DNA of 61,135 nucleotides from an uncultured Rhizobiaceae group bacterium (GTDB taxonomy: Bacteria > Pseudomonadota > Alphaproteobacteria > Rhizobiales > Rhizobiaceae). The notes below the pieces were generated by a model, which saw nothing but the letters and a program-made list of their open reading frames with translations, ran no database searches and had not been told where the DNA came from. Of the stretch, positions 8,116 to 59,523 are shown one piece after another. A program made the translations under genes and the position numbers. The first letter of the stretch is position 1. Each line of letters starts with the position of its first letter. Location of the stretch: the NCBI GenBank assembly GCA_938044775.1, contig CALIOE010000018.1:1-61135 (forward strand). Reading direction: 5' to 3'.

Positions 8116-8543
8116 TCATCCTCGGGGGATCTGGGCACGGGCCGCCAGTCCGGCGGCGCCATTTCGAAATTTGCAAAATCGAAACCCGGCGCCACGGTAC
8201 AACCAACCAGGGTCCAGTGACCCAGACTTTCCGCTGTCTGCCACCAACCGGCCGGAACAACCAATTGCGGTTTTTCACCTGAGATCAGATTGGGTCCAAG
8301 GCGGTGGGCCTCGGCGTCGTGACCGTTCGATGACAGCGTCAGGCTGAGCGGCCCTCCCGCATAGTGATGCCAGACTTCAGAACTGCCGTGAACGCGATGC
8401 CAGTGCGAGCAGTCTCCTGCTTCTAACAGATAGTAGATCGCGGTTGATCCTTCATCGCGGAAGGTCTCTGCGTAGTGACCACCTTCCGGGTGGGGTACCA
8501 GTTCGAGATGCGCGATGATCTCCGCCGCGCCTACATCATGCAT
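8112..8543 (-). CDS. Cupin superfamily protein (DUF985)
   Basis: A 143-residue single-domain beta-barrel protein with the DUF985 pattern: HPEGGHYAETFR, IYYLLEAGDCSHWHRV, VWHHYAGGPL, and VPAGWWQTAES near the C-terminus. Several histidines could bind a metal. The biochemical role of the family is unsettled (sugar- or nucleotide-linked epimerase-like folds are related). Its ATG overlaps the gloB stop by one base (TGATG), so it is translationally coupled to gloB. Confidence 0.85.
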   Translation of the reverse strand: MHDVGAAEIIAHLELVPHPEGGHYAETFRDEGSTAIYYLLEAGDCSHWHRVHGSSEVWHHYAGGPLSLTLSSNGHDAEAHRLGPNLISGEKPQLVVPAGWWQTAESLGHWTLVGCTVAPGFDFANFEMAPPDWRPVPRSPEDD

Positions 8544-9328
8544 CAGAACCTGTCCTTGCGCGCACGGATCTCCGTAAACACCTCTGCATCTGTTGCACCG
8601 GTCATTCCCAGATGCTCGCGTATGGCTGGATCAGCAGCCCGCAGAAACGGATTGGTTTTCTTTTCGAGCTCAATGGTCGTCGGCAAGGTTGGTGTGCCTT
8701 CGTCACGCAACAGCTCAATCTCCTTCGCCCGCGCCAGAAGTGCGTCATTTTCGGGGTCGATCGTTACAGCAAACCGGGCATTTGCCAGTGTGTATTCGTG
8801 ACCGGCATAGACCTTTGTTGCGTCTGGCAGGGCAGCAAGACGCTGCAACGCCATGTGCATCATCGGTCCATCGCCCTCAAAGATTCGACCGCAGCCCAGT
8901 GCAAAAAGGGAATCTGCTGCAAACACCATCCCCTGGTCAGGAAAATAATAGGCCACATGCCCCAGCGTATGCCCTGGCGTGCCGATCACCTCGATCCGGT
9001 GCCCGTTGAGCTCCAGGGAATCGCCATGGCCTGCTACCCGGTCGATTCCCGGAATGCGATCCCTTTCATCCGCCGGTCCGATGATCTCGCAACCATAGGC
9101 CGCCTTCAAACTCTCATTGGCGGCCACATGATCACCGTGATGGTGGGTGGTCAGAATATGCGTCAGCTTGATCCGCTTGGCCTCCAGAACATCGATGATC
9201 GGCTCTTCTTCAGGCGCATCGATTGATATCGCCAGTCCGCTCTCCGGGTCGTGCAGGACCACGCCATAATTGTCCTCGCGACAGGGAAACTGAAACGTTT
9301 TCAATCGCGCGGGTTTACCTTCACTCAT
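8543..9328 (-). CDS. gloB: Hydroxyacylglutathione hydrolase (glyoxalase II)
   Basis: A 261-residue metallo-beta-lactamase-fold hydrolase that cleaves S-D-lactoylglutathione to D-lactate and glutathione, the second step of methylglyoxal detoxification. The binuclear metal motif is TTHHHGDHVAAN, with further ligands in GTPGHTLGHVAYY, FAADSLFALGCGR and YAGHEYTLAN. The C-terminal NPFLRAADPAIRE is typical of glyoxalase II. The ATG at 9328 is chosen because GGAGAAAG lies just upstream; the longer frame has no such site. It is divergent from a methyltransferase gene with 63 bases between the starts, an arrangement familiar in Rhizobiales. Confidence 0.95.
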   Translation of the reverse strand: MSEGKPARLKTFQFPCREDNYGVVLHDPESGLAISIDAPEEEPIIDVLEAKRIKLTHILTTHHHGDHVAANESLKAAYGCEIIGPADERDRIPGIDRVAGHGDSLELNGHRIEVIGTPGHTLGHVAYYFPDQGMVFAADSLFALGCGRIFEGDGPMMHMALQRLAALPDATKVYAGHEYTLANARFAVTIDPENDALLARAKEIELLRDEGTPTLPTTIELEKKTNPFLRAADPAIREHLGMTGATDAEVFTEIRARKDRF

Positions 9329-9391
9329 TTCTTTCTCCACCGACGTGTTTGGCCGGTTCCGGCCTGACTGCAAACTTGTTATCGTATTTGC

Positions 9392-10171
9392 ATGCATATG
9401 GATATTGTTGATCTAAGGCAGTTTTACGCGACGCCGCTTGGACAGCTGGCCAGGCGATCACTTGAGCAGTCGATTGGAAGCGTATGGCAACCCCTGACAA
9501 ATGAACGACTTGTCGGTCTTGGATATGCAACACCCTATCTCGACCGGTTTCGCGCAGACACCGAACGAACGCTGGCCTTCATGCCTGCTGCCCAGGGGGC
9601 TGTTTCCTGGCCTCACGCTGAACCCAACGCTGCCGCGCTGGTGTTCGACGAAGACCTGCCGCTTCCGGATTCAAGCATTGACCGCCTGCTCATGGTTCAC
9701 GCGCTGGAACATTGCGAGAATGCCGATGAGACCATGAACGAAATCTGGCGCGTTCTCTCCCCCGGAGGTCGGCTCGTCATTGCGGTACCAAACCGGCGTG
9801 GTGTCTGGGCACGGGTGGAGCAGACACCATTTGGTTCCGGCAGGCCCTACTCCGGCGGTCAGTTGGTCAAGCTCCTGCGTCAAAATATGTTCACACCGAC
9901 TGCCTGGTCCGACGCGCTTCACTTCCCCCCGTCACGAAGCAAACTGACCACGGGCCTGGCCGGCTCATTTGAGCGAATCGGCCGCAAATTTGCCCCCGCC
10001 TTTGCTGGGGCAATCGTCGTTGAAGCGACCAAGCAGGTCTACCAGGGGCTGCCGGTCAAAGAACGCAAATCCAAGCGCGTCTTCGTGCCTGTACTCGCCC
10101 CTCAGGGAGCTGCCCGCTCTCACAAGGGTCAAAATGAGCGGGCACTTCCCACGGGCGACCGGTTAGCCTAA
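9392..10171 (+). CDS. Class I SAM-dependent methyltransferase (Methyltransf_11 type)
   Basis: A 259-residue protein with a Methyltransf_11 core. DEDLPLPDSSIDRLLMVHALEH (about 86-107) is the acidic-loop and motif II region, followed by NEIWRVLSPGGRLVIAVPNR. The canonical GxGxG motif I is weak, so SAM binding is inferred from the surrounding blocks. The first ATG is at 9392 and a second at 9398 gives MDIVDL. It is divergently placed from gloB and 39 bases upstream of hisC. The substrate is unknown. The C-terminus is basic (KERKSKRVF) and polar. Confidence 0.8.
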   Translation: MHMDIVDLRQFYATPLGQLARRSLEQSIGSVWQPLTNERLVGLGYATPYLDRFRADTERTLAFMPAAQGAVSWPHAEPNAAALVFDEDLPLPDSSIDRLLMVHALEHCENADETMNEIWRVLSPGGRLVIAVPNRRGVWARVEQTPFGSGRPYSGGQLVKLLRQNMFTPTAWSDALHFPPSRSKLTTGLAGSFERIGRKFAPAFAGAIVVEATKQVYQGLPVKERKSKRVFVPVLAPQGAARSHKGQNERALPTGDRLA

Positions 10172-10210
10172 ACCTCCCCGGTAATCCGAAAAATCACTCT
10201 GCTTGATGCC

Positions 10211-11311
10211 ATGATCAAAAAAACCCCACGCCCCCAGCCCAACGATGGTGTGATGAAAATCAACGCTTATGTGCCCGGTAAGTCCGCTGCACCGGCGGGC
10301 GTAAAACTGCACAAGCTTTCCGCCAACGAAACACCTTTGGGACCGAGCCCCAAAGCCAGGGAAGCTATGATCACAGTCGCAGACAGCCTGGAGGACTACC
10401 CTGACGGCAGCGCAAGCGACCTTCGCGGCGCAATTGCCAAACGGCATGGTCTGAACGCAGAGAACATTCTGTGCGGTAACGGATCGGACGAATTGCTGGG
10501 ACTCCTCGCGCAAGTCTATTTGGCGCCGGGCGATGAAGCGATCTACACGGAACATGGTTTTCTGGTCTACCGAATTGGCATCCTTGCTGCCGGTGCAACC
10601 CCGGTGGTTGCTCCGGAGCGTGACAATACCGCCGATATTGATGCCATCCTTGATCGGGTGACGGAGAAGACACGGATCGTGTTTCTGGCAAATCCGAACA
10701 ATCCGACCGGCACTTACATTCCCATGAGCGAAGTTCGGCGATTGCAGGAAAACCTGCCGACGGACGCCCTCCTGGTTCTGGATGCCGCCTATGCCGAGTA
10801 TGTACGGCGCAACGATTACGAAGCCGGAACGGAGCTTGTGGCCAACAGCGACAATGTGATCATGACCCGCACATTCTCAAAGATACACGGTCTGGCTGGT
10901 CTGCGGGTTGGCTGGATGTACGCGCCTGGCCCTATTATTGACGCTCTCAACAGGGTGCGGGGCCCCTTCAATGTGAACGCTGTAGCCCTGGCGGCTGCGG
11001 AGGCTGCAATAGAAGACCGGTCTATGGTGGACAAGGCCATCGCTCACAACGACAAGTGGCTGGCATGGACAACAGACCAACTGATTGCCCTTGGCCTTGA
11101 TGTGACACCCAGTGTAGGCAACTTCATTCTTGTGCATTTTCCCGACGATTCCGCCCGCAGTGCGGCCAGGGCAGATGAATTCCTGACGGAGCGGGGATAT
11201 GTGTTACGGCGGGTGGTTCCCTATGGATTTGAAAACGCTCTGAGGATGACCATCGGCACCGAGGAGGCCAACCGGGGCGTTGTGGAATCACTCAAGGAGT
11301 TCCTGGCTTAG
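10211..11311 (+). CDS. hisC: Histidinol-phosphate/aromatic aminotransferase
   Basis: A 366-residue class I/II PLP aminotransferase. The lysine is K224 in [16 protein letters not shown]. Other hallmarks are [14 protein letters not shown] (36-49), [12 protein letters not shown] (88-99), [11 protein letters not shown] (161-171) and DAAYAEY (191-197). Located directly before tyrA, it probably serves histidine biosynthesis (imidazole-acetol-phosphate to histidinol-phosphate), tyrosine/phenylalanine transamination, or both, as in Rhizobiales with this gene pair. The N-terminus [22 protein letters not shown] supports the start at 10211. The next gene begins four bases after the stop. Confidence 0.93.
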
Positions 11312-11315
11312 CAAC

Positions 11316-12239
11316 ATGGCAGATCCCATTTTCAAACGGCTTTGCCTGATCGGTATTGGCCTTATCGGCTCCTCCATTGCCCTGCGCGCGCGTCGCGACG
11401 GGTTGGCGGAATCGATTGTTGTATACACCCGACGCAAGGAGACGTTGGATCGCGCCCGCGAGCTCGATCTCGGCGATGAATACACCGATCGCATCGGCGA
11501 AGCGGTTGATGGAGCCGACTGCGTAGTTTTGTGCATACCAGTCGGTGCCTGCGCTGCCGTTGCCGAGCGCATGGCACCACACCTTGCTGCGGGTGCAATT
11601 GTTACCGATGTCGGTTCGGTCAAACAGTCGGTCATCAATCAGATCAAACCGCATTTGCCGGAAGGTGTGCATCTCGTTCCGGGTCATCCCGTCGCAGGGA
11701 CGGAATATTCGGGACCGGATGCAGGTTTCTCAACATTGTTCGACGAGCGCTGGTGCCTGTTGACACCTGAAGCCGGAACCGACATCCAGGCTATTGAGAC
11801 ACTAACAAAATTCTGGCAGGGCCTAGGCTCGACTGTCGACACAATGGACGCTAACCATCACGATCGCGTGCTGGCTGTTACGTCTCACATCCCCCACCTG
11901 ATCGCCTACAATATTGTCGGTACGGCCTCCGACCTCGAAGAAATTTCAGAATCAGAGGTGATAAAATTCTCGGCATCTGGCTTTCGGGATTTCACACGCA
12001 TTGCGGCATCTGATCCCGTCATGTGGCGAGATGTTTTTTTGCACAACAAAGAAGCAGTGCTGGAAATGCTCGGCCGCTTCTCCGAAGACCTCTCGGCTTT
12101 GCAACGTGCCGTACGCTGGGGTGACGGGGATCTCCTGTTTGAACACTTTACCAAGACACGTGACATCCGGCGCGGCATTATCGAGGCGGGCCAGGAGAGC
12201 GACGTACCGAACTTTGGCAGAGATCAGATTGAAGAATGA
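11316..12239 (+). CDS. tyrA: Prephenate/arogenate dehydrogenase
   Basis: A 307-residue NAD(P)-dependent dehydrogenase of tyrosine biosynthesis. The Rossmann motif is LIGIGLIGSSIAL near the N-terminus. VTDVGSVKQSV, PGHPVAGTEYSG and the VTSHIPHLIAY histidine segment are characteristic of the TyrA family. The start MADPIFKRL at 11316 lies four bases after the hisC stop, so the two form one operon. Whether prephenate or arogenate is preferred cannot be read from the sequence. No ACT domain is present, so feedback control may be absent or act elsewhere. Confidence 0.93.
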   Translation: MADPIFKRLCLIGIGLIGSSIALRARRDGLAESIVVYTRRKETLDRARELDLGDEYTDRIGEAVDGADCVVLCIPVGACAAVAERMAPHLAAGAIVTDVGSVKQSVINQIKPHLPEGVHLVPGHPVAGTEYSGPDAGFSTLFDERWCLLTPEAGTDIQAIETLTKFWQGLGSTVDTMDANHHDRVLAVTSHIPHLIAYNIVGTASDLEEISESEVIKFSASGFRDFTRIAASDPVMWRDVFLHNKEAVLEMLGRFSEDLSALQRAVRWGDGDLLFEHFTKTRDIRRGIIEAGQESDVPNFGRDQIEE

Positions 12240-12281
12240 TGGCCGGTTGATCTGTCGCAGTTGCCCGTGACGCGCCTGTTC

Positions 12282-13319
12282 CTAAAGTCGAAGCGCACCT
12301 AATTCGCCGATCTTCAGGAAACCCGGTCTGATCTCGCCGCGCTCGATCCGTAGCTGCACCGCCTTAATTTCTTCCTCTCCGAACATGACGGGCTTGCCAA
12401 GGGCATTCAGTCCGTTGCCGAGGTTAAGCAGAAAGGTTTTGAGGGCAGGGTCGAACTTTTCAAAGGCACTGGCAACGGCCTTCGGGTTTGCCATACCGAG
12501 CTGAATTTCACCACTGAGCAGACCATCAGTGTCCAACTGCAGAGGGCCGTTGAGCACCAGTTTGCCACCATTTGCTACTGAAATCGTCAAAGAACGGACC
12601 AGTCCCGATGCACCATCCGCAAGAACCCTATCAAGCGGCATTTTCATGGCCACGAAGTCGCGGTAGCCGTCATCCAGACGGGCATCAAAATAGACACTCA
12701 ATTTGGGAAACGCAGCACCGATGGCGCCAGACTGTTCGATCTGCTTAAAATCGGCAGCCACGTCCAGCGCCATTTTCGCTTGGCGTTCCTCGGTAGCGGG
12801 AGAGGGTCGCAGATGCAGCGCGCCTTCCGCAACTTTCAGACTCTGGCCCTTGAGCAAGGCGTCAAGGTCAGAGAAATTGAGCGATGCAAGATCAAAGCCT
12901 CCATCGAAACTGGCATCAAGAAATACCCGCAGCCGGGTCCAATTCGCTGCCACAGACTGGCCGTTCGCCTTCAGCTCAAAAGGCGCATCCAGTTCGCCAA
13001 CCATTTTTCCCGGGGCATAGAGCTGGGCCGCCGTGCGCAGGGTGCCGGATGTCGCCTGCAAACCGGAACGGGCGTCGGCCACATCAATCGAATTGCAGTG
13101 AATTCCCAGCCGAAACGGGAAGCCGCGGATATCCTGATCTCCGCACGAGATTTTCAATCCCCTGGCGTCCAGTTTTTGGAGGGTTTCGGTCACCTTACCA
13201 TCTGCATAGCCGGCGATGGCGAACCAGCCGATAAACCACAGCGCAAAGAGAGCCAGCATGAAAAGGCCCCACTTGGCCATGCCATGGGAAAAGAAGGACC
13301 GGGTTTCAGATTGGTTCAT
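12282..13319 (-). CDS. DUF2125 membrane-anchored protein
   Basis: A 345-residue protein with one N-terminal transmembrane segment (residues 17-38, GLFMLALFALWFIGWFAIAG) and a large periplasmic domain carrying CGDQDIRGFPFRLGIHC, a pattern of the alphaproteobacterial DUF2125 family. Function is unknown; the domain is beta-rich and AsmA-like in flavour. The ATG at 13319 is selected because it directly precedes the anchor; the longer frame adds low-complexity sequence overlapping the divergent chaC gene. It converges on tyrA with a 42-base gap. Confidence 0.82.
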   Translation of the reverse strand: MNQSETRSFFSHGMAKWGLFMLALFALWFIGWFAIAGYADGKVTETLQKLDARGLKISCGDQDIRGFPFRLGIHCNSIDVADARSGLQATSGTLRTAAQLYAPGKMVGELDAPFELKANGQSVAANWTRLRVFLDASFDGGFDLASLNFSDLDALLKGQSLKVAEGALHLRPSPATEERQAKMALDVAADFKQIEQSGAIGAAFPKLSVYFDARLDDGYRDFVAMKMPLDRVLADGASGLVRSLTISVANGGKLVLNGPLQLDTDGLLSGEIQLGMANPKAVASAFEKFDPALKTFLLNLGNGLNALGKPVMFGEEEIKAVQLRIERGEIRPGFLKIGELGALRL

Positions 13320-13414
13320 TTCGGATTGACTCGGGGCTGCTGTTCCGGTTGATGACGCGATAGCGCGAGGTTCGCGTTCTGTGGCAATCTCTATACAGGT
13401 TTTCAGGCAAATCC

Positions 13415-13957
13415 ATGGGCGACTACCAGCAAGACGAAGAAAACCACTTTTGGATCTTTGGCTATGGCTCTTTGATGTGGCGGCCTGGCTTTGACTATCT
13501 GGAGGCATGCAAAGCGACCATCACCGGGCTGCACCGAGCACCCTGCATCTATTCCTGGGTTCATCGGGGAACGCAGGAGAGACCGGGAATTGTTTTGGGA
13601 CTCGACAGGGGCGGCACCTGTACAGGCATGGCGTTCAAAGTTTCAAACACCATTCAAAAAGAAACAGTCGCATACCTGCAGGAACGTGAACTGGTTACCA
13701 ATGTCTACCTTGAATCCCATGACCGCGCGGTACTCGAAACCGGCGGTGAAATATCCTGTCTCACCTACATTGTCGACCAGAACCACGAGCAGTATGCGGG
13801 ACAATTACCGATAGATGAATTGATGCACCAGATTCGCGGCGCGATTGGCCAGTCCGGCCGCAACGAGGACTATTTCATCAACACAGCCCAAAAGCTGAAA
13901 GAACTGGACATCCGCGACGAACTAATGGAATCGATCGTCAAGCATTTGACGGATTGA
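13415..13957 (+). CDS. chaC: ChaC-type gamma-glutamylcyclotransferase
   Basis: A 180-residue protein with the ChaC signature FGYGSLMWRPGF at residues 15-26 and a GxxLGLDRGGTCTGMAFKV block. The family cleaves glutathione to 5-oxoproline and Cys-Gly and lowers cellular glutathione. The protein is cytosolic. Its 3-prime end overlaps the 3-prime end of the convergent small SOS-type gene by about 20 bases. Confidence 0.9.
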   Translation: MGDYQQDEENHFWIFGYGSLMWRPGFDYLEACKATITGLHRAPCIYSWVHRGTQERPGIVLGLDRGGTCTGMAFKVSNTIQKETVAYLQERELVTNVYLESHDRAVLETGGEISCLTYIVDQNHEQYAGQLPIDELMHQIRGAIGQSGRNEDYFINTAQKLKELDIRDELMESIVKHLTD

Positions 13958-14318
13958 TGTCACCCATGATCTCTGCGGCGTCTGCATCATCATCAAGCAG
14001 ATGGACATAAAGCGGCGTCCCGGCCCGAACTTTCGATGCATCGTCAAGCACGCGCACGTCGCCTGCAACGCCGGTAAGCGCAAACACAGCTCTACGATAC
14101 AATTCGACCTGTTCGGTGCGAATTGCAGAGAAAATGTAACGACGCCCGGACTGCCCTTTCAGATAGACAAAACGGCCAAGACCAGCTTCCTCGACCACGG
14201 ATTTGACCAACCGTGACACAGAAACCGGCCCGCCACAGGCATAGTCCGGAGCGTCAAAAGGCACGAAGGAGGAAACGGAAGTGGCGGCTGCGGGGGCTGG
14301 GTCAGAGTTGGCGTACAT
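13938..14318 (-). CDS. Small protein of unknown function behind two LexA boxes
   Basis: A 126-residue soluble protein I cannot assign. It has an Ala/Ser/Pro-rich N-terminus of about 25 residues, then a compact domain (SRLVKSVVEEAGLGRFVYLK, SGRRYIFSAIRTEQVELYRR) and a very acidic end (HLLDDDADAAE). The start at 14318 is fixed by AAGGAG seven bases upstream; the GTG at 14333 overlaps that site. Two GAAC-N7-GAAC elements lie 28-66 bases upstream, so damage-inducible expression under LexA is likely. It could be a division inhibitor, nuclease modulator or repair accessory, but nothing in the sequence decides this. Confidence 0.8.
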   Translation of the reverse strand: MYANSDPAPAAATSVSSFVPFDAPDYACGGPVSVSRLVKSVVEEAGLGRFVYLKGQSGRRYIFSAIRTEQVELYRRAVFALTGVAGDVRVLDDASKVRAGTPLYVHLLDDDADAAEIMGDINPSNA

Positions 14319-14345
14319 AATGTTCTCCTTCACACGATATCATGA

Positions 14346-14360
14346 GAACATATATAGAAC
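14346..14360. promoter_or_regulatory. LexA (SOS) box, proximal copy
   Basis: The 15-mer GAACATATATAGAAC is a perfect GAAC-N7-GAAC direct repeat. The alphaproteobacterial LexA site is GTTC-N7-GTTC, which is the same element on the other strand. It lies 28-42 bases upstream of the start of the minus-strand small gene, in an AT-rich core-promoter position. Confidence 0.8.
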
Positions 14361-14369
14361 AAATTAAGA

Positions 14370-14384
14370 GAACATTACAAGAAC
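14370..14384. promoter_or_regulatory. LexA (SOS) box, distal copy
   Basis: GAACATTACAAGAAC is a second perfect GAAC-N7-GAAC element, nine bases from the first. It sits between the plsC stop (14387) and the small gene. Two exact copies in 39 bases are hard to explain by chance and suggest tight LexA repression. Confidence 0.78.
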
Positions 14385-14386
14385 AA

Positions 14387-15181
14387 TTATTTTGGTCCCC
14401 GGCGTTTTTTCGCCAGTTCTATCCGCTCTTTCACAGCAACAGACAGAGGCGGAAGCACCGGGTCGTCCAGTGTTTCGAGATACAGATCGTCGCAACCCTC
14501 CTCAATTCGCCGCTCAAGCTCACTGGCAAAGGTCTTACCGTCCAGACCCGGCATAATCGGCTCGAGAAACCGCAGTCGGATCTTTCCCGGGTGACGAATG
14601 AACTTGCGGCGCGGCCAGTAAAGCCCTGATGTCAGGGCCACGGGAACCACCGGGCATCCCATCTCCAGATACATCCTCGTAATTCCGTAACGGTACGCCG
14701 GCTGCGCTCCAGGTGAGCGTCTCGTTCCTTCCGGAAAAATCAGAATTTGCCTGCCTTTCGCGATCTCCTTCTTGGCATCGCGCAGCATACCCTTGAGTGC
14801 TTTGCTGCGATCTCCGCGACGAATCGGTATGTGATCCAGCTTCGCCACATACCAGCCGAAAAACGGGATCTTCATCAATTCAGCCTTGAGGACAAAGGCA
14901 CTGTCCGACAGCATCTCATAGAGTGACAGGAAGTCCCACAGAGACTGATGCTTGGCGGCTACGACATATCCGCCGACCGGAAGATTTTCCTGCCCCGTGA
15001 CCTCATAGTCAGTACCTACGATCCATCGGTGAAACCAATACATGCTGCGCGCACAACGTTGCGGCACTTTGACTGCGCTCTTGTGCGACAGAAAAAAGTA
15101 GAAGGGAGTCTGCAGGATCATCTGCCCCAGAAGGTTCACGTAATAGACAATGTTGAAAAGAAACGATCTAAGATAAAGCAC
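14387..15181 (-). CDS. plsC: 1-acyl-sn-glycerol-3-phosphate acyltransferase
   Basis: A 264-residue membrane-associated acyltransferase that converts lysophosphatidate to phosphatidate in phospholipid synthesis. The catalytic HX4D is H78 to D83 in KHQSLWDF. The phosphate-binding FPEGTRR, IPFFGWYVAKLDHIPIRRGD and CPVVPVALTSG blocks follow in family order. A hydrophobic N-terminal segment (about residues 5-30) anchors it to the inner membrane. It lies 35 bases downstream of the DUF218 gene on the same strand. Confidence 0.94.
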   Translation of the reverse strand: MLYLRSFLFNIVYYVNLLGQMILQTPFYFFLSHKSAVKVPQRCARSMYWFHRWIVGTDYEVTGQENLPVGGYVVAAKHQSLWDFLSLYEMLSDSAFVLKAELMKIPFFGWYVAKLDHIPIRRGDRSKALKGMLRDAKKEIAKGRQILIFPEGTRRSPGAQPAYRYGITRMYLEMGCPVVPVALTSGLYWPRRKFIRHPGKIRLRFLEPIMPGLDGKTFASELERRIEEGCDDLYLETLDDPVLPPLSVAVKERIELAKKRRGPK

Positions 15182-50387: not shown

Positions 50388-51065
50388 ATGAACCTCGATC
50401 AGGCGATGAAAGAACGTCGCTCCATCCGCGGTTTTCAAAACAAACCCGTTTCGCGTGAACTGCTTGAGGAGATTGTCGCGCTGGCAAACAGAGCGCCGTC
50501 TTCAATGAACACCCAGCCCTGGCACCTGCATATCCTTACAGGCGACCCGCTCGAACAGGTTCAAAAAGGCAACACTGAGCGTATGCTTGGCGGCGTAACG
50601 CCCAGCCGCGAGATCGAAGATTACGCCGCCTACGAAGGCGAACATCGCAAGCGACAGATCGAAATTGCGGTTCAACTCTTTGAAGCCATGGGAATCGAGC
50701 GCCATGATGCTGAACGGCGACAGGACTGGGTCATGCGTGGCTTTCGTCAATTCGACGCGCCGGTGTCAGTTGTCGTCTGTTTTGACCGCGCACTCCTGAA
50801 CAACACCATCGCCCATTTTGATACAGGCGCCATGACTTTCGGACTGGTGCTGGCGGCGTGGAGCAAAGGCCTTGGCGCCGTCATCAACGGACAGGGCATC
50901 ATGCAGAGCCCGGTCGTGCGCGAAGTGGCGAGCATCCCCGAGGATCAGGTCATCCTGACCTGTGTGGCGCTCGGCTGGCCTGACGATGACTTCGTCGCAA
51001 ATTCCGTCGTTTCACGTCGTCGACCGGTAGAAAACATCACCCGCTTTCTTGGTTTCGATGGCTGA
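50388..51065 (+). CDS. Nitroreductase-family FMN oxidoreductase (2)
   Basis: A 225-residue nitroreductase. KERRSIRGF and RAPSSMNTQPWHLHIL bind FMN. The late block IPEDQVILTCVALGWPDDDF is typical. CAGGAG lies eight bases before the ATG. It is 231 bases downstream of dehydrogenase 3, so it may have its own promoter. Its pairing with a second N-methyl-compound cluster mirrors nitroreductase 1 at 19813-20502. Confidence 0.9.
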   Translation: MNLDQAMKERRSIRGFQNKPVSRELLEEIVALANRAPSSMNTQPWHLHILTGDPLEQVQKGNTERMLGGVTPSREIEDYAAYEGEHRKRQIEIAVQLFEAMGIERHDAERRQDWVMRGFRQFDAPVSVVVCFDRALLNNTIAHFDTGAMTFGLVLAAWSKGLGAVINGQGIMQSPVVREVASIPEDQVILTCVALGWPDDDFVANSVVSRRRPVENITRFLGFDG

Positions 51066-51612: not shown

Positions 51613-52755
51613 CTATACCAGTTCCGCAAAGGCCTCCGGGCTGAAATCAATCCTTGGATCCCTGTCGATACCCTGGATCTTTGCGACCCAATTAGGGTCA
51701 GCGAGAATCGCACGGCCCACCGCAATCAGATCAAACTCTTCTCGCTCCATGCGGCGTACGAGTTCGTCCAGATCCGTGGGTTGTGAGCTCTTGCCTCCAA
51801 ACGCTCCAAAGAAATCACCGGATAGTCCAACAGAACCAACAGATATAGTTGTGGTACCGGTCAGCTTCTTGACCCATCCCGCAAAGTTAAGCCCGTCAGT
51901 CCCGTCAACATCTGGGAATTCGGGCTCCCAAAAGCGCCTCTGCGAACAATGTAACATATCGGCGCCGGCTTCTACCAACGGAAGAAGCCATTCGGTCATG
52001 GCTTCCGGTGTTTCGGCCAGGCGAACCTTATAGTCTTGCTGCTTCCACTGACTGACCCGCAATGCGATCGGAAAGTCGGCGCCCACCTCACGACGGACGG
52101 CACTGACAACCTCAGCGGCGAATCTTGACCTCTCCCGAAGCGTCGCTCCACCCCAGCGGTCATCACGCATATTGGTTCCCGACCAGAAGAACTGATCAAT
52201 CAGATAACCGTGAGCACCATGAATCTCGACCATGTCAAATCCCAGGCGCTTCGCCTCGCCCGCCGCCTTTGCATAGGCAGCAATCGCGTCGGTCACATCC
52301 TCATCGGTCATCGGATTGCCGCGTGGGTCGCCGGGGCCAACAAGACCCGACGGACTTTCCACGGGCTGGTCAGGCTCCCAACCGCGCTGACCTCGGGTTG
52401 ACCCGGTGTGCCAGATTTGTGGACCCATCTTGCCTCCGGCCTGATGAACTCCTTCAATGACCTGCTTCCAGCCGGATAGAGCCTCTTCACCATGGAAGAA
52501 CGGAATAGCCTCTTCATTCTTGGAGGCGGGTCTATCAATGACTGTTCCCTCAGAGAGGATGAGCCCAACTTCACCGGCGGCGCGCCGGCGGTAGTAGTCA
52601 GCTACATTGGACTTTGGCACGCCACCGGGCGAAAAAACGCGAGTCATAGGCGCCATGACAATGCGGTTTTGCATGGACAGGGACTTGAGCTTGAAAGGCT
52701 CGAAGAGGACGTCAGCGGTGAGGGATTTTGGCTTGGCTGTTATTGAAGCGGGCAT
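51613..52755 (-). CDS. NADH:flavin oxidoreductase, Old Yellow Enzyme family
   Basis: A 380-residue FMN TIM-barrel protein. RIVMAPMTR (31-39), QIWHTGS, EIHGAHGYLIDQFFWSGTN with the substrate-binding His pair, and RWGGATLRERSRF are all Old Yellow Enzyme blocks. It lacks the iron-sulfur and second flavin domain of trimethylamine dehydrogenase, so it is a simple ene-reductase type. It is divergent from the YcaO operon with 301 bases between. Confidence 0.92.
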   Translation of the reverse strand: MPASITAKPKSLTADVLFEPFKLKSLSMQNRIVMAPMTRVFSPGGVPKSNVADYYRRRAAGEVGLILSEGTVIDRPASKNEEAIPFFHGEEALSGWKQVIEGVHQAGGKMGPQIWHTGSTRGQRGWEPDQPVESPSGLVGPGDPRGNPMTDEDVTDAIAAYAKAAGEAKRLGFDMVEIHGAHGYLIDQFFWSGTNMRDDRWGGATLRERSRFAAEVVSAVRREVGADFPIALRVSQWKQQDYKVRLAETPEAMTEWLLPLVEAGADMLHCSQRRFWEPEFPDVDGTDGLNFAGWVKKLTGTTTISVGSVGLSGDFFGAFGGKSSQPTDLDELVRRMEREEFDLIAVGRAILADPNWVAKIQGIDRDPRIDFSPEAFAELV

Positions 52756-53056: not shown

Positions 53057-54310
53057 ATGGGCAAAAATCGGACCATGGAGATTGATGCGGACGATCTTGG
53101 CGTGAAACAGTTTTCGGCTGGTATTCATCGCATCTGCAGTGCAAGTGCAACGCTGAAACACGTACTTCCATTGGCGCAGAAATTCGGCATCACACGGCTG
53201 GCAAATGTCACTGGCCTGGATTCGGTTGGACTTCCCGTCGTGATTGCAATCAGACCCAATGCCCGCTCCGTCGCCGTGTCTCAGGGAAAAGGCATGAGCC
53301 TGGATCAAGCCAAGGCATCAGCGCTGATGGAAGCGGTTGAAATATGGCATGCTGAAAACATCGACAATGCCTTACATTTCGGCAGGGCTGCGGAGTTGCA
53401 GGATCGAAAAGCCCTGGTAAGCCTTGAAAGATTGCCAACGGTTCAGAACAGTCAATTCAGCCATGAATTGAGAATGTTGTGGGCGGAGGCAACAGATCTG
53501 ATGAGCACAAGCGAAATTCTTGTGCCATTCGAGATGGTCCATGCGGATTACACCAACCCAATTCAGCCGGGTCACGGTTGTTTTCCCGCCAGCACCAACG
53601 GCCTTGCGTCAGGCAATCACATTCTGGAGGCCATATGCCACGGCATCTGCGAAGTTATTGAGCGTGACGCACTTTCGCTCTGGCATCATCAGAGCGAGGC
53701 ATATCGGGAATCACGGAGAATATCGCCATCGACCGTGGATGATCCCGACTGTTTGTCTGCACTCGAGCGATTTTCAGAATGCGGACTGGACTTCGGCATC
53801 TGGGATCTCACAACCGATGTCGGCGTAGCAACCTTCATGTGCGCCATCAAACAAGCTGACGGCCTCTCCGGCCATGTGGGGCTGGGCTCCGGAAGCCACC
53901 CGGATCGCAATATTGCGCTACGACGGGCGGCAACGGAGGCAGCGCAGACACGTCTGAACTACATAACCGGTTCACGAGACGATCTTGTTGCCGAAGAGTA
54001 CGAACCAGAAGGCATAGCAGAAAAGCACATTTTTTTCGGTGAGATGCTGTCCAGCCGTCAGGCGGAAAGGCATTTCGATCAGGTCGAAAGCACAAGGAAC
54101 GACACCCTGAAAGGCGATCTGGATTGGCTGCTTTCGAAGTTGGCCAATATTGGAATTCAACAAGTGGCCGTGGTCGATCTGACCAAGAACGAGTACAAGA
54201 TCCCGGTTGTGCGGGTCATCATACCCGGCCTGGAAGCACCGCATGATGATATCAGCTACCTGCCCGGACCAAGAGCCCAAATCGTAGGTGAGATGCGGGG
54301 GAAGGAATGA
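53057..54310 (+). CDS. YcaO-family ATP-dependent peptide-backbone modification enzyme
   Basis: A 417-residue YcaO protein. Family signatures: QGKGMSLDQAKASALMEAVE (76-95), the ATP/magnesium-binding glutamates in EAICHGICEVIERDA (E191, E199, E202), and LRRAATEAAQTRL (288-300). YcaO enzymes activate a backbone amide with ATP to make azolines, amidines or, with TfuA, thioamides. The C-terminus ends MRGKE and lacks the PxPxP motif of azoline-forming YcaOs, which favours the thioamide type. It overlaps the TfuA gene by ATGA. No ocin-ThiF-type or E1-like partner and no azoline dehydrogenase is nearby. The substrate is not proven; the repeat protein 2.2 kb downstream is the candidate. Confidence 0.9.
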   Translation: MGKNRTMEIDADDLGVKQFSAGIHRICSASATLKHVLPLAQKFGITRLANVTGLDSVGLPVVIAIRPNARSVAVSQGKGMSLDQAKASALMEAVEIWHAENIDNALHFGRAAELQDRKALVSLERLPTVQNSQFSHELRMLWAEATDLMSTSEILVPFEMVHADYTNPIQPGHGCFPASTNGLASGNHILEAICHGICEVIERDALSLWHHQSEAYRESRRISPSTVDDPDCLSALERFSECGLDFGIWDLTTDVGVATFMCAIKQADGLSGHVGLGSGSHPDRNIALRRAATEAAQTRLNYITGSRDDLVAEEYEPEGIAEKHIFFGEMLSSRQAERHFDQVESTRNDTLKGDLDWLLSKLANIGIQQVAVVDLTKNEYKIPVVRVIIPGLEAPHDDISYLPGPRAQIVGEMRGKE

Positions 54311-55098
54311 TCGTGTTCGCAGGTCCCTCGCTGGCAACAAGCGGACCCGTGTCGAGCACGGATCTCGACATACGCCCTCCTGCGAAGCAGGGAGATGTTT
54401 ATCTCGCAACTCTTGAAGAGCCCCGGGCCATAGGAATTATCGACGGGTACTTCGAAGGTGTACCGTCCGTTTGGCATAAGGAAATTCTATGGGCCCTGAA
54501 GCAGGGAATCGCTGTCTTCGGCGCGGCAAGTATGGGCGCTTTGAGGGCGGCAGAACTCGACGTTTTCGGAATGATCGGTGTTGGTTCAATCTACTGGGCC
54601 TACCGCGATGGTACAATTGAAGATGACGACGAGGTCGCACTGATCCACGGTCCGATGGAGACGAACTACATTGCCTTGAGTGTTGCCATGGTCAACGTCA
54701 CCGCCACCTGCTCAAAAGCACTGAACGATGGCATAATCACCCGGCAGCAATACGACTTGCTGACCCGAGCTGCCAAGGCGATGTTTTACAAGGAACGAAC
54801 CTGGGACACGCTGCTGGCAAATCCGGACAACAAAAACCTCAAGCCGTTCGAGGCGTGGCTTGAGAACAATGAAGTCGATCAAAAGGCACTTGATGCCCTT
54901 GAGATGCTTGATCGAATGCAGGGTTTTCTTGCAGATCCCGCGTCGGAAATCCTGCACTCAGACTTTCGTTTTGAAAACACCGATCTCTGGCAAACCAGTT
55001 GCCAACGGTGGCGACAAAACCAACAAAAAAATCAGGATTCTGATCGGGTTCGCAGTGGCGCGTATCGGCTTCTGGACAGCGGCAACTTTTTTCGCTGA
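54307..55098 (+). CDS. TfuA-like protein, partner of YcaO
   Basis: A 263-residue TfuA-family protein. The core is clear: GIIDGYFEGVPSVWHKEI (43-60), FGAASMGALRAAEL (71-84) and GVGSIYWAYRDGTIEDDDEV (91-110). TfuA proteins work with YcaO; in methanogens the pair is needed for thioglycine in methyl-coenzyme M reductase and in thiovarsolin biosynthesis for a peptide thioamide. TfuA is thought to supply or handle sulfur. The last 40 residues (SCQRWRQNQQKNQ...) are polar and unlike the core, and an overlapping reading frame there looks at least as protein-like, so the true C-terminus is uncertain. Confidence 0.9.
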   Translation: MIVFAGPSLATSGPVSSTDLDIRPPAKQGDVYLATLEEPRAIGIIDGYFEGVPSVWHKEILWALKQGIAVFGAASMGALRAAELDVFGMIGVGSIYWAYRDGTIEDDDEVALIHGPMETNYIALSVAMVNVTATCSKALNDGIITRQQYDLLTRAAKAMFYKERTWDTLLANPDNKNLKPFEAWLENNEVDQKALDALEMLDRMQGFLADPASEILHSDFRFENTDLWQTSCQRWRQNQQKNQDSDRVRSGAYRLLDSGNFFR

Positions 55099-55138
55099 TA
55101 TGATCGCAACGGGCAGTTGCCGCTGCATTAACGGATAA
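54971..55138 (+). CDS. Possible small membrane peptide overlapping the tfuA 3-prime end
   Basis: In the +1 frame relative to TfuA, a 55-codon ORF from a TTG at 54971 ends six bases before the metallopeptidase ATG. It encodes a basic N-terminus (DKTNKKIR), one hydrophobic segment (ILIGFAVARIGFWTAATFFA) and a tail ATGSCRCING with two cysteines. Third-position GC looks higher here than in the TfuA frame. It could be a small precursor peptide or membrane protein, or the real C-terminus of TfuA if there is a sequence error. There is no strong ribosome-binding site. Low confidence. Confidence 0.25.
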   Translation: MKTPISGKPVANGGDKTNKKIRILIGFAVARIGFWTAATFFADMIATGSCRCING

Positions 55139-55144
55139 AGCAGG

Positions 55145-56428
55145 ATGAACACACAGGTGGCAGGCGAAGGAACCCGGTTCAAGTTATACCCACAGCCTCG
55201 TTTTGTTGAAGGCTATCAGGAGCCTGAAACGGTCTACGTTTCTTCGCCAGCCGGGAGTCTGCTGCCCGGCCCGTCAGACCATCGGATGTACACGCTTTAT
55301 CCCATCGGAAAACCTGGACCTTATGGAATAAATCCCGACCCGGGCGATTCCTCAAAAGTGCTGTCGCCTCCGTGGACCGGCGCCTGCCATCCCCCCGCCA
55401 TGCCCAACGAAGAAGGGCATTTCGATCATCTGGAACCAAACACTGAACAGTTTGAGGCCGCTCACCTATTTGGAACCGTCCGCTTTGTTCTGGACATCTG
55501 GGAAGATTACTTTGGGCGCATCATTCCCTGGCACAGCAAGAAGCACTACGACCGGCTTGAATTGACCATTTTGCCGTCCCTTGAAAACGCGTATTCCGGA
55601 TATGGGTTTCTGGAAATGGGTGGCGATCGTAAGCACGGGGGCTTCAAGCCGTTCAGTTTGAATTTTGATGTTATAGCTCACGAAGTCGGCCATGCCATCA
55701 TCTACTCCGAGATTGGCGTTCCTGATCCGGCGGCTGCCACTGGAGAATATTTCGGCTTTCACGAAAGTGCCGCCGATCTCGTGGCACTGGTGTCATCGCT
55801 GCACTTCAATTCCCTGGTTGATCATCTCCTCCATAACACGAGGGGAAACCTGTACAGGTTGAACTCGATCAACCGGATGGCTGAACTGTCGGGTAACAAG
55901 CAAATCCGAATTGCAGCCAATGATGTGCGGCTGTCCAAATTCGCCCGAGGCTGGGTCAAAGAACACAAACTATCTCAACCCCTGACCGGGGCATTCTTCG
56001 ACATTCTGGTGGACATCTTTCACGAATGCCTGCTCGATTACGGTGCAATTAGCCCTGAGATGGAGGAGCTTTCAGATGAACTGCTGGCGACACCTGACTA
56101 CGCTCCGGTGATGCAGACGCTTTTTGACGGCGCCTTCGCCGCAAATCCCGAGGGATTTAAGCTGGCCCTGATAGATGCCCGTGACATATTGGGGACCTAC
56201 CTGGCAGATACCTGGACAAAGCTGGATCGGAACGACCTGAGTTTCGCCGATGTTGCATTCACTTTTCAACAAGTTGACCAAGAGCACACGGGCGGCCGTT
56301 TTGCCAATCAAATCCGGGGCAACTTCAGCATGCGCGATATAGGCCATGTGGAAGTCGGACCTCAACTGGCACCGCTTGAAAAAGACAGCCACGCAAATTC
56401 GGTTCGCACCCTAATTCCGGTAGACTAG
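55145..56428 (+). CDS. Gluzincin-type zinc metallopeptidase without signal peptide
   Basis: A 427-residue protein. Zinc motif HEVGH at 179-183 (VIAHEVGHAIIYSEIG) and a downstream glutamate at E207 in GFHESAADLVAL give the HEXXH plus E arrangement of thermolysin-like gluzincins. I could not place it in a named subfamily. The N-terminus (MNTQVAGEGTRFKLYPQ) is no signal peptide, so it should act in the cytosol or leave by an unusual route. It starts 46 bases after the tfuA stop and six after the small ORF, preceded by AGCAGG. In this context it may trim the modified substrate or act as its own substrate. Confidence 0.8.
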   Translation: MNTQVAGEGTRFKLYPQPRFVEGYQEPETVYVSSPAGSLLPGPSDHRMYTLYPIGKPGPYGINPDPGDSSKVLSPPWTGACHPPAMPNEEGHFDHLEPNTEQFEAAHLFGTVRFVLDIWEDYFGRIIPWHSKKHYDRLELTILPSLENAYSGYGFLEMGGDRKHGGFKPFSLNFDVIAHEVGHAIIYSEIGVPDPAAATGEYFGFHESAADLVALVSSLHFNSLVDHLLHNTRGNLYRLNSINRMAELSGNKQIRIAANDVRLSKFARGWVKEHKLSQPLTGAFFDILVDIFHECLLDYGAISPEMEELSDELLATPDYAPVMQTLFDGAFAANPEGFKLALIDARDILGTYLADTWTKLDRNDLSFADVAFTFQQVDQEHTGGRFANQIRGNFSMRDIGHVEVGPQLAPLEKDSHANSVRTLIPVD

Positions 56429-56496
56429 AAGCAGTCACTGCTCTAACCTGTTGGAGAACGGGGCGAAATTGATTAATCCTGAGTTTGGGGGACGAG

Positions 56497-57060
56497 ATGT
56501 CAGAAACGCTTTTGAGTGCGTCAAACATCGTACTGTTTGGTCGCGTGGTTGAAGATATTACTGTTGCAGCTGCCGAGTCTAAATCCGGAAAACCCGGATC
56601 GCCGGCGCAGGGTGTTGCGTCTGCAGCAGAACAGCAGCTCAATCAAAAGTCGGGAACGAAAAGTAAGCCTGTGACACCCAAATTCGCCAGAATTTATGGC
56701 TTCAGCTATGGCGGCGCCTATTTCGAGACAGGAACACCGGTGCTGTTTCTCGTGCACGGCGACGGCGTTGATCTCTCAAAGATCAAGGAGCCGGGTCCAA
56801 ACGCAAATGACAAGGCGTTTTATGACGATCTTAAGGCGTGGTCCTATGATCGCGCGGATCATACCATCCGGCTCGACATCGATTCAGGCAGTTTCGAACA
56901 ATTGCTTCTGGACGTGGGCGTCGAAGGAGGCCCGGGTGTTTCAGGTGCACGCGTTTCCGGGGCTCGGGTCTCAGGGGCCAGGGTGTCTGGTGCGCGCGTG
57001 TCCGGAGCCCGTATTTCAGGAGCGCGCCTCAGCGGTGCCCGTGGGGACGCCAGCGACTAA
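56497..57060 (+). CDS. Protein of unknown fold with C-terminal [V/I/L]SGAR repeats; candidate modified substrate
   Basis: A 187-residue protein I do not recognise. Residues 1-145 form a leader-like or folded domain: MSETLLSASNIVLFGRVVED, an Ala/Ser/Lys-rich linker (about 28-62), then FARIYGFSYGGAYFETGTPV and a DLKAWSYDRADHTIRLDIDS region. After GGPG come seven five-residue repeats (148-182) and the end GDASD. There are no cysteines. GGGGGAC lies five bases before the ATG; a TTG at 56485 is less likely. It is the last gene of the YcaO-TfuA-peptidase series, 68 bases after the peptidase. The repeats could be RiPP core units or a short pentapeptide-like helix. Confidence 0.8.
   Translation: MSETLLSASNIVLFGRVVEDITVAAAESKSGKPGSPAQGVASAAEQQLNQKSGTKSKPVTPKFARIYGFSYGGAYFETGTPVLFLVHGDGVDLSKIKEPGPNANDKAFYDDLKAWSYDRADHTIRLDIDSGSFEQLLLDVGVEGGPGVSGARVSGARVSGARVSGARVSGARISGARLSGARGDASD
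56938..57042 (+). repeat. Seven tandem 15-bp units encoding [V/I/L]SGAR
   Basis: The order of first residues is V, V, V, V, V, I, L. The repeats are exact in protein but heavily scrambled in codons: Ser uses TCA, TCC, TCT and AGC; Arg uses CGC, CGG, AGG and CGT. Recent DNA slippage would leave identical codons, so the peptide sequence is under selection. Confidence 0.97.
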
Positions 57061-57128: not shown

Positions 57129-58895
57129 CTAGAGCCCTGCCCGTTCGAGACCTTCAGCAAAATGTGCGACATCGGCCTCGTACTTGTCGGGTTGAACGGC
57201 AGCCCAGTGCTTTACACTGAAATTCGGGTGGGCCGCGCGAACCTTCTCCGCTTCTGCTCTTGCTTCGGCTTCGCGACCCAAATGGGCGTAACTGGCCGCC
57301 AAAATCCTGCGGCCCTCGGTGGGATTTTGCATCTTGAGAATGGTGTGGATGGCTTCTTCGTATCGCTTCAGATTGAAGTACGCGCCGCCCAGATGCCAAA
57401 TGTACTGATCCGGATAGAACGGATTGAGTCGCATGGCCTTGTGCAAGAGATCGATGGCCTCTTCGGATCGGCCGGAATGGGCGAGTGCGTCTGCCATATC
57501 CGACATCAGATCCGCATCATTTGGATTAAGAGACAGAGCACGCTCATAGGCGTTGATCGCGGGTTCATGTTCCTTCCGATAGAGGTGGGCAAAACCCAGT
57601 TCGCCATATCCGCGGGCGTCGATGCCATCCAGGTCAATGGCGGTGCGCGCCAGTCCCAGGGCGTCATCCAGCGCAACATCCGGATGATCAGCCCAATCAT
57701 AGCGCCAGTCCAGGTTGAACGTCCTCGACTTGGCCGAAAGCGCCCGGGCATATTTGGGATCGTTATCGAGAGCTGCGTTATAAAGCCCCCGGGCCTCCCG
57801 AACCTCGTTTTGCGTATACCGGAAGATGTGGCGCTGACCCTGCAAAACGAAACCGTACGCGGCAAGGCTGGATGGCGGCAACTGCCGCAGCCGCTCGCGC
57901 TCCGACGCCTCGATTTTGGCTGCGGTTGCCGAGACAATGGTTTGCGTGATCTCATCCTGAAGATCGAAAAGGTCTTCAATATCGCGGTTGTATTGCTCGC
58001 CCCAGATAATTCGGTCCCGCTGAGCGTCGAGAAGCTGCAGCGTTATTCGAATGCGCGAACCGGCCTTTCGGACAGAACCATCCACCGCATACCGAACGCC
58101 AAGTTCCTTTGCCGCCGTTTTTGGGGAGACAGACCTTTCGCTGTACATATACGCCGAACCTCGAGCGATCACAAAGAACTCCTGGAAGCGGGACAGACTT
58201 GTTGTGATATCCTCGGTCAGACCATCGGCAAACCAGCTATCCGAATTATCACCTCCGCGAAAACTGAACGGCAACACGACAATGGACTGGTCTTTTACCG
58301 GGTCTCCGATAAAGCTCTTCGACCGTTCGCTGTCCTGACGTCGCCCGGGAGTCATAGCAGCGCTGGTCGGGTTCTCATGCACCTGGAAGACGTCGACGCG
58401 GTTCTTGATATTCTTAAATTCCTGAGCGCCGAGGAATTCGTAGCCAAAACTCAGTTTGTCACTGATGTGATCATACACCACACCTGAGATGCAAACCCTG
58501 CCCGGATTGGCAAATCCTTCAATTCGGGAAGCAATATTAATGCTGTCGCCGCTCAGGTCGTTATCATCGACCAATATCTCGCCGAGATTGATGCCAATGC
58601 GAAAATTGACTTGCTCGCTTTCTTCGAGCCCGGCGTTAAGCTCTTGCAACTGCTTTTGAATTTCGACGGAGAAAGCAACCGCGTCCACCGCGCTCTCGAA
58701 CAGCATGAACAATCCATCGCCAGCGGAGCGTACGATTTCACCGGAGTAACGACCAGCCAGTTCTGAAAAGAGCGCAATGCGCGACTTGACCGCCAAAGCG
58801 GTCTTCATCTCATTGTCACCCATCATGCGGCTGTAATTCGCGACATCGGCGAACACGATTGCCACAAGCCGGCGCTTCATCCCCCTCGCGTTCAT
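57129..58895 (-). CDS. Class III adenylate/guanylate cyclase with TolB-like and TPR domains
   Basis: A 588-residue cytosolic protein. Cyclase domain at about 6-175: metal aspartates D17 (VFADVANYSRMM) and D60 (RSAGDGLFMLF), with RIGINLGEI and GDSINIASRIEGFANPG. A TolB-like region (about 205-325) begins SIVVLPFSFRGG and includes WFADGLTEDITTSLSR. TPRs fill about 330-570 (AINAYERALSLNPNDADLMSDM, AIDLLHKAMRLNPFYPDQYI). This architecture is common in Hyphomicrobiales. It converges on the repeat-protein gene and starts one base after the GNAT stop, so the GNAT gene is upstream in the same transcript. Confidence 0.92.
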   Translation of the reverse strand: MNARGMKRRLVAIVFADVANYSRMMGDNEMKTALAVKSRIALFSELAGRYSGEIVRSAGDGLFMLFESAVDAVAFSVEIQKQLQELNAGLEESEQVNFRIGINLGEILVDDNDLSGDSINIASRIEGFANPGRVCISGVVYDHISDKLSFGYEFLGAQEFKNIKNRVDVFQVHENPTSAAMTPGRRQDSERSKSFIGDPVKDQSIVVLPFSFRGGDNSDSWFADGLTEDITTSLSRFQEFFVIARGSAYMYSERSVSPKTAAKELGVRYAVDGSVRKAGSRIRITLQLLDAQRDRIIWGEQYNRDIEDLFDLQDEITQTIVSATAAKIEASERERLRQLPPSSLAAYGFVLQGQRHIFRYTQNEVREARGLYNAALDNDPKYARALSAKSRTFNLDWRYDWADHPDVALDDALGLARTAIDLDGIDARGYGELGFAHLYRKEHEPAINAYERALSLNPNDADLMSDMADALAHSGRSEEAIDLLHKAMRLNPFYPDQYIWHLGGAYFNLKRYEEAIHTILKMQNPTEGRRILAASYAHLGREAEARAEAEKVRAAHPNFSVKHWAAVQPDKYEADVAHFAEGLERAGL

Positions 58896-58896
58896 A

Positions 58897-59523
58897 TCAT
58901 CCCCGCCTACTCGCAGTAGAATCCTGGTACATTTCTATTGAAATTCCACCTGCCATCGACAACTTCTGTTCTAATTCTTTCCTGGTATCAAGCCATTCAG
59001 ATTTCAACAGGCCGACCTGAACGACATCATTGTGGAGTCCCTTAGCGAACCAGCCTTCGCGGGTGCATCCTTCAATGCGAAATCCAGCCCGCTTGACGAT
59101 GTGGGCTGTAGCCGCATTGTCTGCACGATAATAGGTGGTCAGACGGTGTAACCGGAGGTGATCAAACCCAATATCGACCATCGATGTAGCCAGCGCTGAT
59201 GCGAGGCCCTTGCCGCGCATTTTTTGGGCCACGAACACTGGCAAGACAGCATCTCCGTGGATGTAGTTGATTGAGTGAAGTCCACACAGACCAACAGCCT
59301 CGTTTTCCTGATCCTCGACCATAAACCACAAAGCGCGAGGCGGGTTCGCAAACTCGATAGACGACTTCCAGCTCTCTTTGACAAACTCCGGCCCGACCGG
59401 AATCGGCAGCCCACGATCGAACAGGGCGACATCGTCAAAATTGACAAACCAGTCGGCGATGGAATCCATATCGCTCAGGCCCATTGGCCGAAGCAGAAAA
59501 TCTGCCTGCTCTTTTTTTGCCAT
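58897..59523 (-). CDS. GNAT-family N-acetyltransferase (RimJ/RimL-like)
   Basis: A 208-residue acetyltransferase. The acetyl-CoA P-loop region is LPVFVAQKMRGKGLASALAT, followed by HLRLHRLTTYYRADNAATAHI and VKRAGFRIEGCTREGWFAKG, the RimJ/RimL-type C-terminal pattern. There is no signal peptide. The target is unknown: protein N-terminus, amino acid or small amine. It probably forms an operon with the cyclase gene. Confidence 0.9.
   Translation of the reverse strand: MAKKEQADFLLRPMGLSDMDSIADWFVNFDDVALFDRGLPIPVGPEFVKESWKSSIEFANPPRALWFMVEDQENEAVGLCGLHSINYIHGDAVLPVFVAQKMRGKGLASALATSMVDIGFDHLRLHRLTTYYRADNAATAHIVKRAGFRIEGCTREGWFAKGLHNDVVQVGLLKSEWLDTRKELEQKLSMAGGISIEMYQDSTASRRG

Follow-up and report, generated by a model that had tools for sequence, protein, structure and literature searches.

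What does a YcaO-TfuA enzyme pair act on when its neighbors are a peptidase and a protein that ends in short tandem repeats? Four plus-strand genes raise this question at positions 53057 to 57060 of the window, by which we mean the whole 61,135-nucleotide stretch of contig CALIOE010000018.1 (assembly GCA_938044775.1) from an uncultured Rhizobiaceae bacterium. They encode YcaO, TfuA, a metallopeptidase, and a repeat protein, in that order. An earlier note, made from the DNA letters, had proposed that the repeats are thioamidated and then trimmed by the peptidase. We found the four genes exactly where it had placed them, with ycaO and tfuA overlapping by ATGA as it said (Table 1). By comparing the locus with its relatives, we found a conserved gene set that probably swaps oxygen for sulfur at the glycine of each tail repeat and then cuts the repeats loose.

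Table 1. Features of the cluster and its downstream flank, in positions of the window
Feature	Position	Strand	Basis
YcaO, proposed ATP-dependent thioamide-forming enzyme	53057..54310	+	PF02624 8.8e-80
TfuA, proposed sulfide-delivery partner	54307..55098	+	PF07812 9.6e-48
Metallopeptidase (gluzincin), thermolysin-like predicted fold	55145..56428	+	AlphaFold2 + Foldseek
Repeat protein, proposed precursor, 187 aa	56497..57060	+	homologues in related loci
Folded N-terminal domain of the repeat protein, residues 1-143, proposed leader/docking part	56497..56925	+	AlphaFold2 model
Seven [V/I/L]SGAR units, proposed cores	56938..57042	+	repeat score, pS/pN, predicted disorder
Class III nucleotide cyclase domain + TPR protein, proposed regulator	57129..58895	-	PF00211 + TPR families
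GNAT acetyltransferase, possible tailoring enzyme	58897..59523	-	PF13302 2.1e-16

Related loci were collected with the peptidase and with the repeat-protein domain as seeds, and gene presence was scored by tblastn (E ≤ 1e-5). YcaO and TfuA never served as seeds for the loci; one YcaO-seeded search was used only for viewing plasmids. The peptidase-seeded search gave 69 loci, 41 of which have YcaO, TfuA, and the peptidase in the order of the window. The repeat protein comes next in 39 of these, and the sequence of the other two (L043 and L046, kept outside the counts below) ends before or inside it. With the further loci contributed by the domain-seeded searches, we counted 59 repeat-protein loci including the window, 49 in the branch of the window and 10 in a rhizobial branch; short stretches (L001 to L008 and L087 to L105) were left out, and 5 of 51 and 7 of 74 plasmid matches were examined. 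YcaO and TfuA are both adjacent in 55 of the 59 loci, TfuA in 56 (in L085, TfuA is adjacent and YcaO is on another contig), and the peptidase in 57, a count that is biased because the peptidase seeded one locus search. Many loci are close kin, and the counts are not independent. An extra gene between TfuA and the peptidase was suspected in divergent loci but could not be made out; in L035, where the TfuA frame was checked, this frame is longer (442 aa). A match from the phylum search (G627, L097) was dropped as an unrelated PCAAN-repeat protein.

The earlier note had said that its proposal would suffer if the repeat protein occurred broadly without YcaO and TfuA. We found that it is not widespread alone, with one exception among Rhizobium plasmids that we take up below. 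The system is patchy: of 385 genomes sampled from the class, 5 have the window-type domain (the window's own genome among them) and 1 has the rhizobial type. Cultured strains that carry the system include Roseobacter insulae, Labrenzia alba, Ruegeria conchae, Roseibium aggregatum, and Hoeflea poritis. Comparison of the loci thus supports a real and conserved cluster in which YcaO, TfuA, the peptidase, and the repeat protein form one unit.

At the end of the repeat protein, which runs from an ATG at 56497 (an upstream TTG at 56485 gives the longest frame) to 57060, we found the seven [V/I/L]SGAR units of the earlier note: five VSGAR, one ISGAR, and one LSGAR. The self-match score of this tail exceeds that of all 2000 shuffles of its own sequence. 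The units differ at the DNA level mostly at synonymous positions (proportion of synonymous differences, pS, 0.78; of nonsynonymous differences, pN, 0.14) and so did not arise by recent slippage. Of the 49 tails in the window branch, 47 are tandem repeats, with a self-match score reached by none of 2000 shuffles; the two below this criterion are L079 (two units, 19 of 2000 shuffles) and L086 (Arg-rich, 341 of 2000). The units are lineage specific and 4 to 7 residues long (best period 5 in 30 tails, 6 in 11, 7 in 5, and 4 in 1), with types that include VSGAR, VSGAK, VSGSR, VSGKR, YSGGKA, ASGQRVR, SAGSFVR, SSGASL, DLVGRS, MNVG, ADMTAR, and SRSGGAL. Between units of the same array, pooled pS is 0.70 and pN is 0.07: synonymous change is almost saturated, and the protein sequence is preserved. 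In 47 of 47 arrays (five of them with two units only), pS is higher than pN. The units are therefore old and translated, and selection maintains them. The tail might instead be an ordinary pentapeptide-repeat helix, since PF00805 comes near its cut-off with the window protein (19.8 to 19.9 bits versus 20.2) and matches 4 of 23 family members at E ≤ 0.01. However, 17 of the 47 repeated tails have a best period other than 5 (4, 6, or 7), and the tail is predicted to be disordered. We rejected membership in the pentapeptide-repeat family on these grounds and give the helix almost no credence.

Natural variation among the units points to the site of modification. In the period-5 arrays (29 arrays, 200 units), glycine is present in 200 of 200 units and is the sole invariant position, a result favored by the unit phase having been set on the glycine-rich column. 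Serine is replaced by alanine in 14 of the 200 units and the last arginine by lysine in 43. Across all 47 arrays, glycine occurs in 268 of 272 units. An invariant glycine with a variable serine favors thioglycine over azoline. Azolines and amidines are also known products of YcaO enzymes, and such chemistry could be considered here, as most units, including all seven in the window, contain serine. In contrast, TfuA is adjacent at all but three loci, and Ser, Thr, or Cys in each core is not a feature of the family: besides the Ser-to-Ala units, the MNVG units contain none of the three (the YcaO of that genome lies elsewhere). As the earlier note reported, no azoline dehydrogenase or E1-like gene was recognized in the cluster. 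Taken together, these data make azolines or amidines a poor candidate for the chemistry.

The enzymes themselves resemble known thioamidation proteins. In a search among solved structures, the best relative of YcaO was MJ1094 (E = 1.5e-31) and that of TfuA was 6xp8 (E = 8.4e-33), both of which we take to be archaeal proteins of the McrA-thioamidation type. Against the NCBIfam equivalog models for McrA-glycine thioamidation (TIGR03266 and NF033432), both matched below the cut-offs, YcaO with 243.5 versus 365 bits and TfuA with 209.5 versus 235.2 bits; thus, neither belongs to those equivalogs. With its adjacent ycaO and tfuA genes, the cluster has the enzyme pair of the YcaO-TfuA thioamidated ribosomally synthesized and posttranslationally modified peptides (RiPPs), of which it is a candidate member.

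The metallopeptidase carries HEVGH followed by HESAAD, and its AlphaFold2 model (predicted local distance difference test score, pLDDT, 89.1) matched thermolysin in Foldseek with an E value of 3.8e-8 and a template modeling score (TM-score) of 0.51 by query and 0.66 by target. H179, E180, H183, E207, and D211 are invariant in 29 aligned sequences. Among 87 peptidase frames, 86 have HExxH and 73 have HExxH plus HExxxD by pattern; we inspected 8 of the 14 frames outside the double pattern and found E(A/S)xxD in 8 of 8. By its HExxH motif, downstream Glu ligand, and predicted fold, the peptidase is a thermolysin-like gluzincin. Its predicted fold and zinc motif are those of thermolysin and M36 peptidases, but it shares only 10 to 15% identity with them (top 30 Foldseek matches), no Pfam or NCBIfam family matched over its cut-off, Pfam M4 included, and the PDB sequences gave a single match (E = 0.66). 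No hydrophobic N-terminal stretch or signal peptide was apparent by eye. Thus, the intracellular gluzincin of the earlier note is retained and now has a thermolysin-like predicted fold. Thermolysin-type peptidases prefer bulky residues after the cut. We found at least one V, I, L, M, F, or Y in 272 of 272 units and exactly one in 254, and about one bulky residue per unit fits cutting of this type.

The repeat protein could alternatively serve the peptidase as an inhibitor or chaperone, as emfourin-type small inhibitors are encoded beside thermolysin-like proteases and as the two genes are neighbors in 57 of 59 loci. Two Paracoccus loci (L078 and L079) argue against this, as they keep the domain with YcaO and TfuA and have no peptidase. 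We also identified 28 distant peptidase relatives (L048 to L063, L065 to L074, L076, and L077) in Actinoplanes, Paenibacillus, Clostridium, cyanobacteria, and others, apparently a stand-alone family of thermolysin-fold proteins without a Pfam name. The domain was found at none of these 28 loci (E ≤ 0.01), some of which are short. We therefore think that an inhibitor or chaperone role is highly improbable. One of the distant loci (L077, Arenibaculum, 8001 to 14626) holds the peptidase, a cyclase-AAA-type gene, and a YcaO-TfuA pair within 7 kb, with no recognizable repeat protein.

The AlphaFold2 model of the repeat protein (mean pLDDT, 65.7) is structured to residue 143, with a disordered tail. 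It had no match among PDB folds at E ≤ 0.001 in Foldseek; therefore, the N-terminal domain may be a new fold or may be modeled too poorly. PDB sequences gave only weak matches (best E = 0.0055), mostly to the tail, and no signal peptide was seen by eye. Across homologues, the folded domain (the putative leader) and the tail (the putative cores) are both conserved, the domain better than the tail.

In the rhizobial branch, the domain occurs without repeats. In three genomes, we found a cyclase-AAA protein, YcaO, TfuA, and the peptidase together with a homologous repeat-free protein, and the same set lies on plasmids of Mesorhizobium, Sinorhizobium (S. meliloti Ak57 pSymB), Rhizobium, Phyllobacterium, and Ensifer. 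Our idea that this branch has no YcaO was wrong; the longer loci show all five genes together. Its domain is homologous to that of the window (hhalign probability 98.0, E = 1.7e-13, 77 columns), and its tail is single, nonrepeated, and conserved, with PGxRSPxxYAxxM in 9 of 9 aligned sequences; a tenth (L119) has Gln in place of Met. Because this branch has one nonrepeated tail, repeats are not essential to the system. This tail and SGAR share a G-x-R spacing, which hints at the modified site but does not prove it. That the rhizobial branch manages without repeats, and that G15, W115, and G131 are invariant in the domain of both branches, would also be expected if the residue modified by YcaO and TfuA lay in the folded domain, with the tail as a tag for docking or signaling. 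It is difficult to see why a tag would be under selection for many near-identical units that bear glycine, and the rhizobial tail is conserved too, so modification of the domain seems improbable to us.

To the four genes of the earlier note, we add a cyclase and often a GNAT acetyltransferase. In the window, both are divergent genes past the repeat protein that were missing from that note, and both recur near related clusters. A cyclase-TPR or cyclase-AAA protein was found in 54 of 59 loci; those without a match are L012, L021, L028 (whose sequence ends about 600 bases past the repeat protein), L029, and L085. The score of the Pfam cyclase domain passed the cut-off in the window, L035, L064, L079, L080, L111, and L113 and below it in L107 (20.0 versus 21.9 bits). 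A GNAT of one of two types occurs in the window branch (33 of 49 loci) and in none of the 10 rhizobial loci; in L119, an annotated GNAT lies further off. YcaO-TfuA pairs in other Alphaproteobacteria (L112, 3773 to 8318; L109, 1996 to 6455) adjoin BTAD-TPR regulators and small frames, and TPR-type regulators may be common partners of TfuA-YcaO. The window's own genome has a second YcaO-TfuA pair (L002, contig C101, 39 to 3296), preceded by a 92-residue precursor-like frame (940 to 1218) and the end of a TPR protein resembling the cyclase-TPR gene. Upstream of YcaO in the window lie a nitroreductase-family gene (50388 to 51065, plus strand) and a flavin mononucleotide (FMN) oxidoreductase gene (51613 to 52755, minus strand). 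The FMN oxidoreductase had a single weak match among the peptidase-seeded loci, in L055, and the nitroreductase was not searched for. A search of an anti-phage library gave no match for YcaO, TfuA, the peptidase, or the repeat protein and weak cyclase and TPR matches for the cyclase-TPR protein.

The frequent cyclase bears on whether the tail is ever released. It may be thioamidated and stay attached, with the repeat protein itself as the product, for example, in metal binding or signaling, and with the peptidase only controlling its level. This would accord with the better-conserved folded domain, with the cyclase matches, and with a protein that has no signal peptide by eye and for which no exporter was identified. 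McrA is a YcaO-modified protein that stays whole, and so, according to PMC13063428, is ribosomal protein uL16. In contrast, the peptidase is adjacent at nearly every locus (the seed-biased count above), and each unit offers a bulky residue suited to cutting. We consider an attached product unlikely, yet the foremost alternative.

Our preferred reading, which we hold to be somewhat better than an even prospect on this comparative evidence, is that the cluster makes thioamide-bearing peptides from a multicore precursor and represents a family of YcaO-TfuA thioamide RiPPs. From the observed parts, we infer the reaction, its site, the cleavage, the acetylation, and the regulation as follows. The folded domain would act as a leader or docking part and the disordered tail as seven cores. 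Sulfide from a thiocarboxylated carrier would pass through TfuA, as summarized in the accessible part of PMC13063428, and YcaO with ATP would turn the amide of the glycine in each unit into a thioamide, with a predicted shift of +16 Da per unit and up to +112 Da. The cytosolic thermolysin-fold peptidase would then cut before the single bulky residue of each unit (between R and V), freeing short peptides (for example, V-S-G(thio)-A-R) as possible substrates for acetylation by the GNAT. Regulation of the pathway would fall to the cyclase-TPR protein. Of the earlier proposal, comparison now makes thioamidation the likeliest chemistry, and the tail behaves like repeated cores; the modification, cleavage, and product stand as predictions.

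Several findings weigh against this reading. The Paracoccus loci have no peptidase with which to release peptides, and L086 has YcaO and TfuA beside an Arg-rich, unrepeated tail. The Rhizobium plasmid lineage (L080 to L082, 3 examined among 49 Rhizobium records) has the window-type domain, the peptidase, and cyclase-TPR and no adjacent YcaO or TfuA. Its tails hold three imperfect SRSGG units, and its repeat protein is perhaps modified in trans or decaying; R. leguminosarum TA1, which carries a locus of this kind, also has a YcaO-TfuA pair elsewhere, on a different plasmid and next to small frames of its own. Unit sequences are too variable for one shared recognition motif, the four units without glycine all belong to L064 (ADMTAR), and the phasing of the period-5 units leans toward glycine. 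In a tree of 61 YcaO sequences (46 from the window branch, 9 rhizobial, and 6 others), the rhizobial group forms one side of a branch (100/99) and the window group includes one outsider (L110), with other YcaO-TfuA enzymes between the two branches and no joint clade versus other YcaO. This topology would fit either separate recruitment of the enzymes to the repeat protein in each branch or the splitting off of other systems. Finally, no exporter was identified in the cluster, as the earlier note had also reported.

Thiovarsolins, made by the var cluster of Streptomyces varsoviensis, are the nearest precedent in logic, by analogy with what the available text of PMC6511847 describes: N-acetylated APR peptides with a thioamide, made from a repeating precursor by YcaO and TfuA, in a family that ranges from nonrepeating to repeating. 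The short Arg-containing N-acetylated products there are comparable to the peptides proposed here. That text reports no dedicated protease and adds heme-oxygenase-like, ATP-grasp, amidinotransferase, and transporter genes, whereas the system described here has its own peptidase and a precursor with a folded domain, together with a cyclase and, in many loci, a GNAT. With glycine thioamidation of McrA in methanogens (PMC5589413, in part), the system shares both homologous enzymes and the proposed site, but its enzymes fall below the McrA equivalog cut-offs and its substrate is a repeat-tailed protein, not McrA. Thioamidation of uL16 by an E. coli-type YcaO likewise places a backbone thioamide on a protein but has no TfuA and a ribosomal substrate, per the same portion of PMC13063428. 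Malit et al. (2021) surveyed the same enzyme pair and counted over 500 TfuA-YcaO clusters in Rhizobium, among which our rhizobial branch may be; the main text of PMC8120280, as far as it was available, does not mention repeats, cyclases, or Roseobacter, and overlap is possible in its supplements. The presence of a cyclase close to genes of this kind has some precedent, because a graspetide survey (PMC8939145) records adenylate cyclases, along with YcaO and TfuA, in the vicinity of one ATP-grasp branch. Literature searches, which reached neither supplements nor most subscription papers, found no published description of this system, and the repeat-protein family looks undescribed. Beyond the earlier note, the comparison adds the two-branch family, the thermolysin-fold peptidase, the cyclase and frequent GNAT, and a likely modification site at glycine.

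Only a few products of bacterial YcaO-TfuA pairs are known. This precursor family has units defined by natural variation, in which glycine is kept and other positions change, and the same cluster supplies a candidate processing peptidase and regulator in named cultured strains. We suggest, tentatively and with more doubt than confidence, that in marine Alphaproteobacteria and on rhizobial plasmids a cyclase-linked system writes a dense thioglycine array into the tail of a conserved protein, which would have an intracellular role in signaling or metal handling, either intact or in the form of short thioamide peptides cut from it, and would not be an exported antibiotic. With this precursor family, the role of thioamides outside antibiotics and McrA becomes directly testable.

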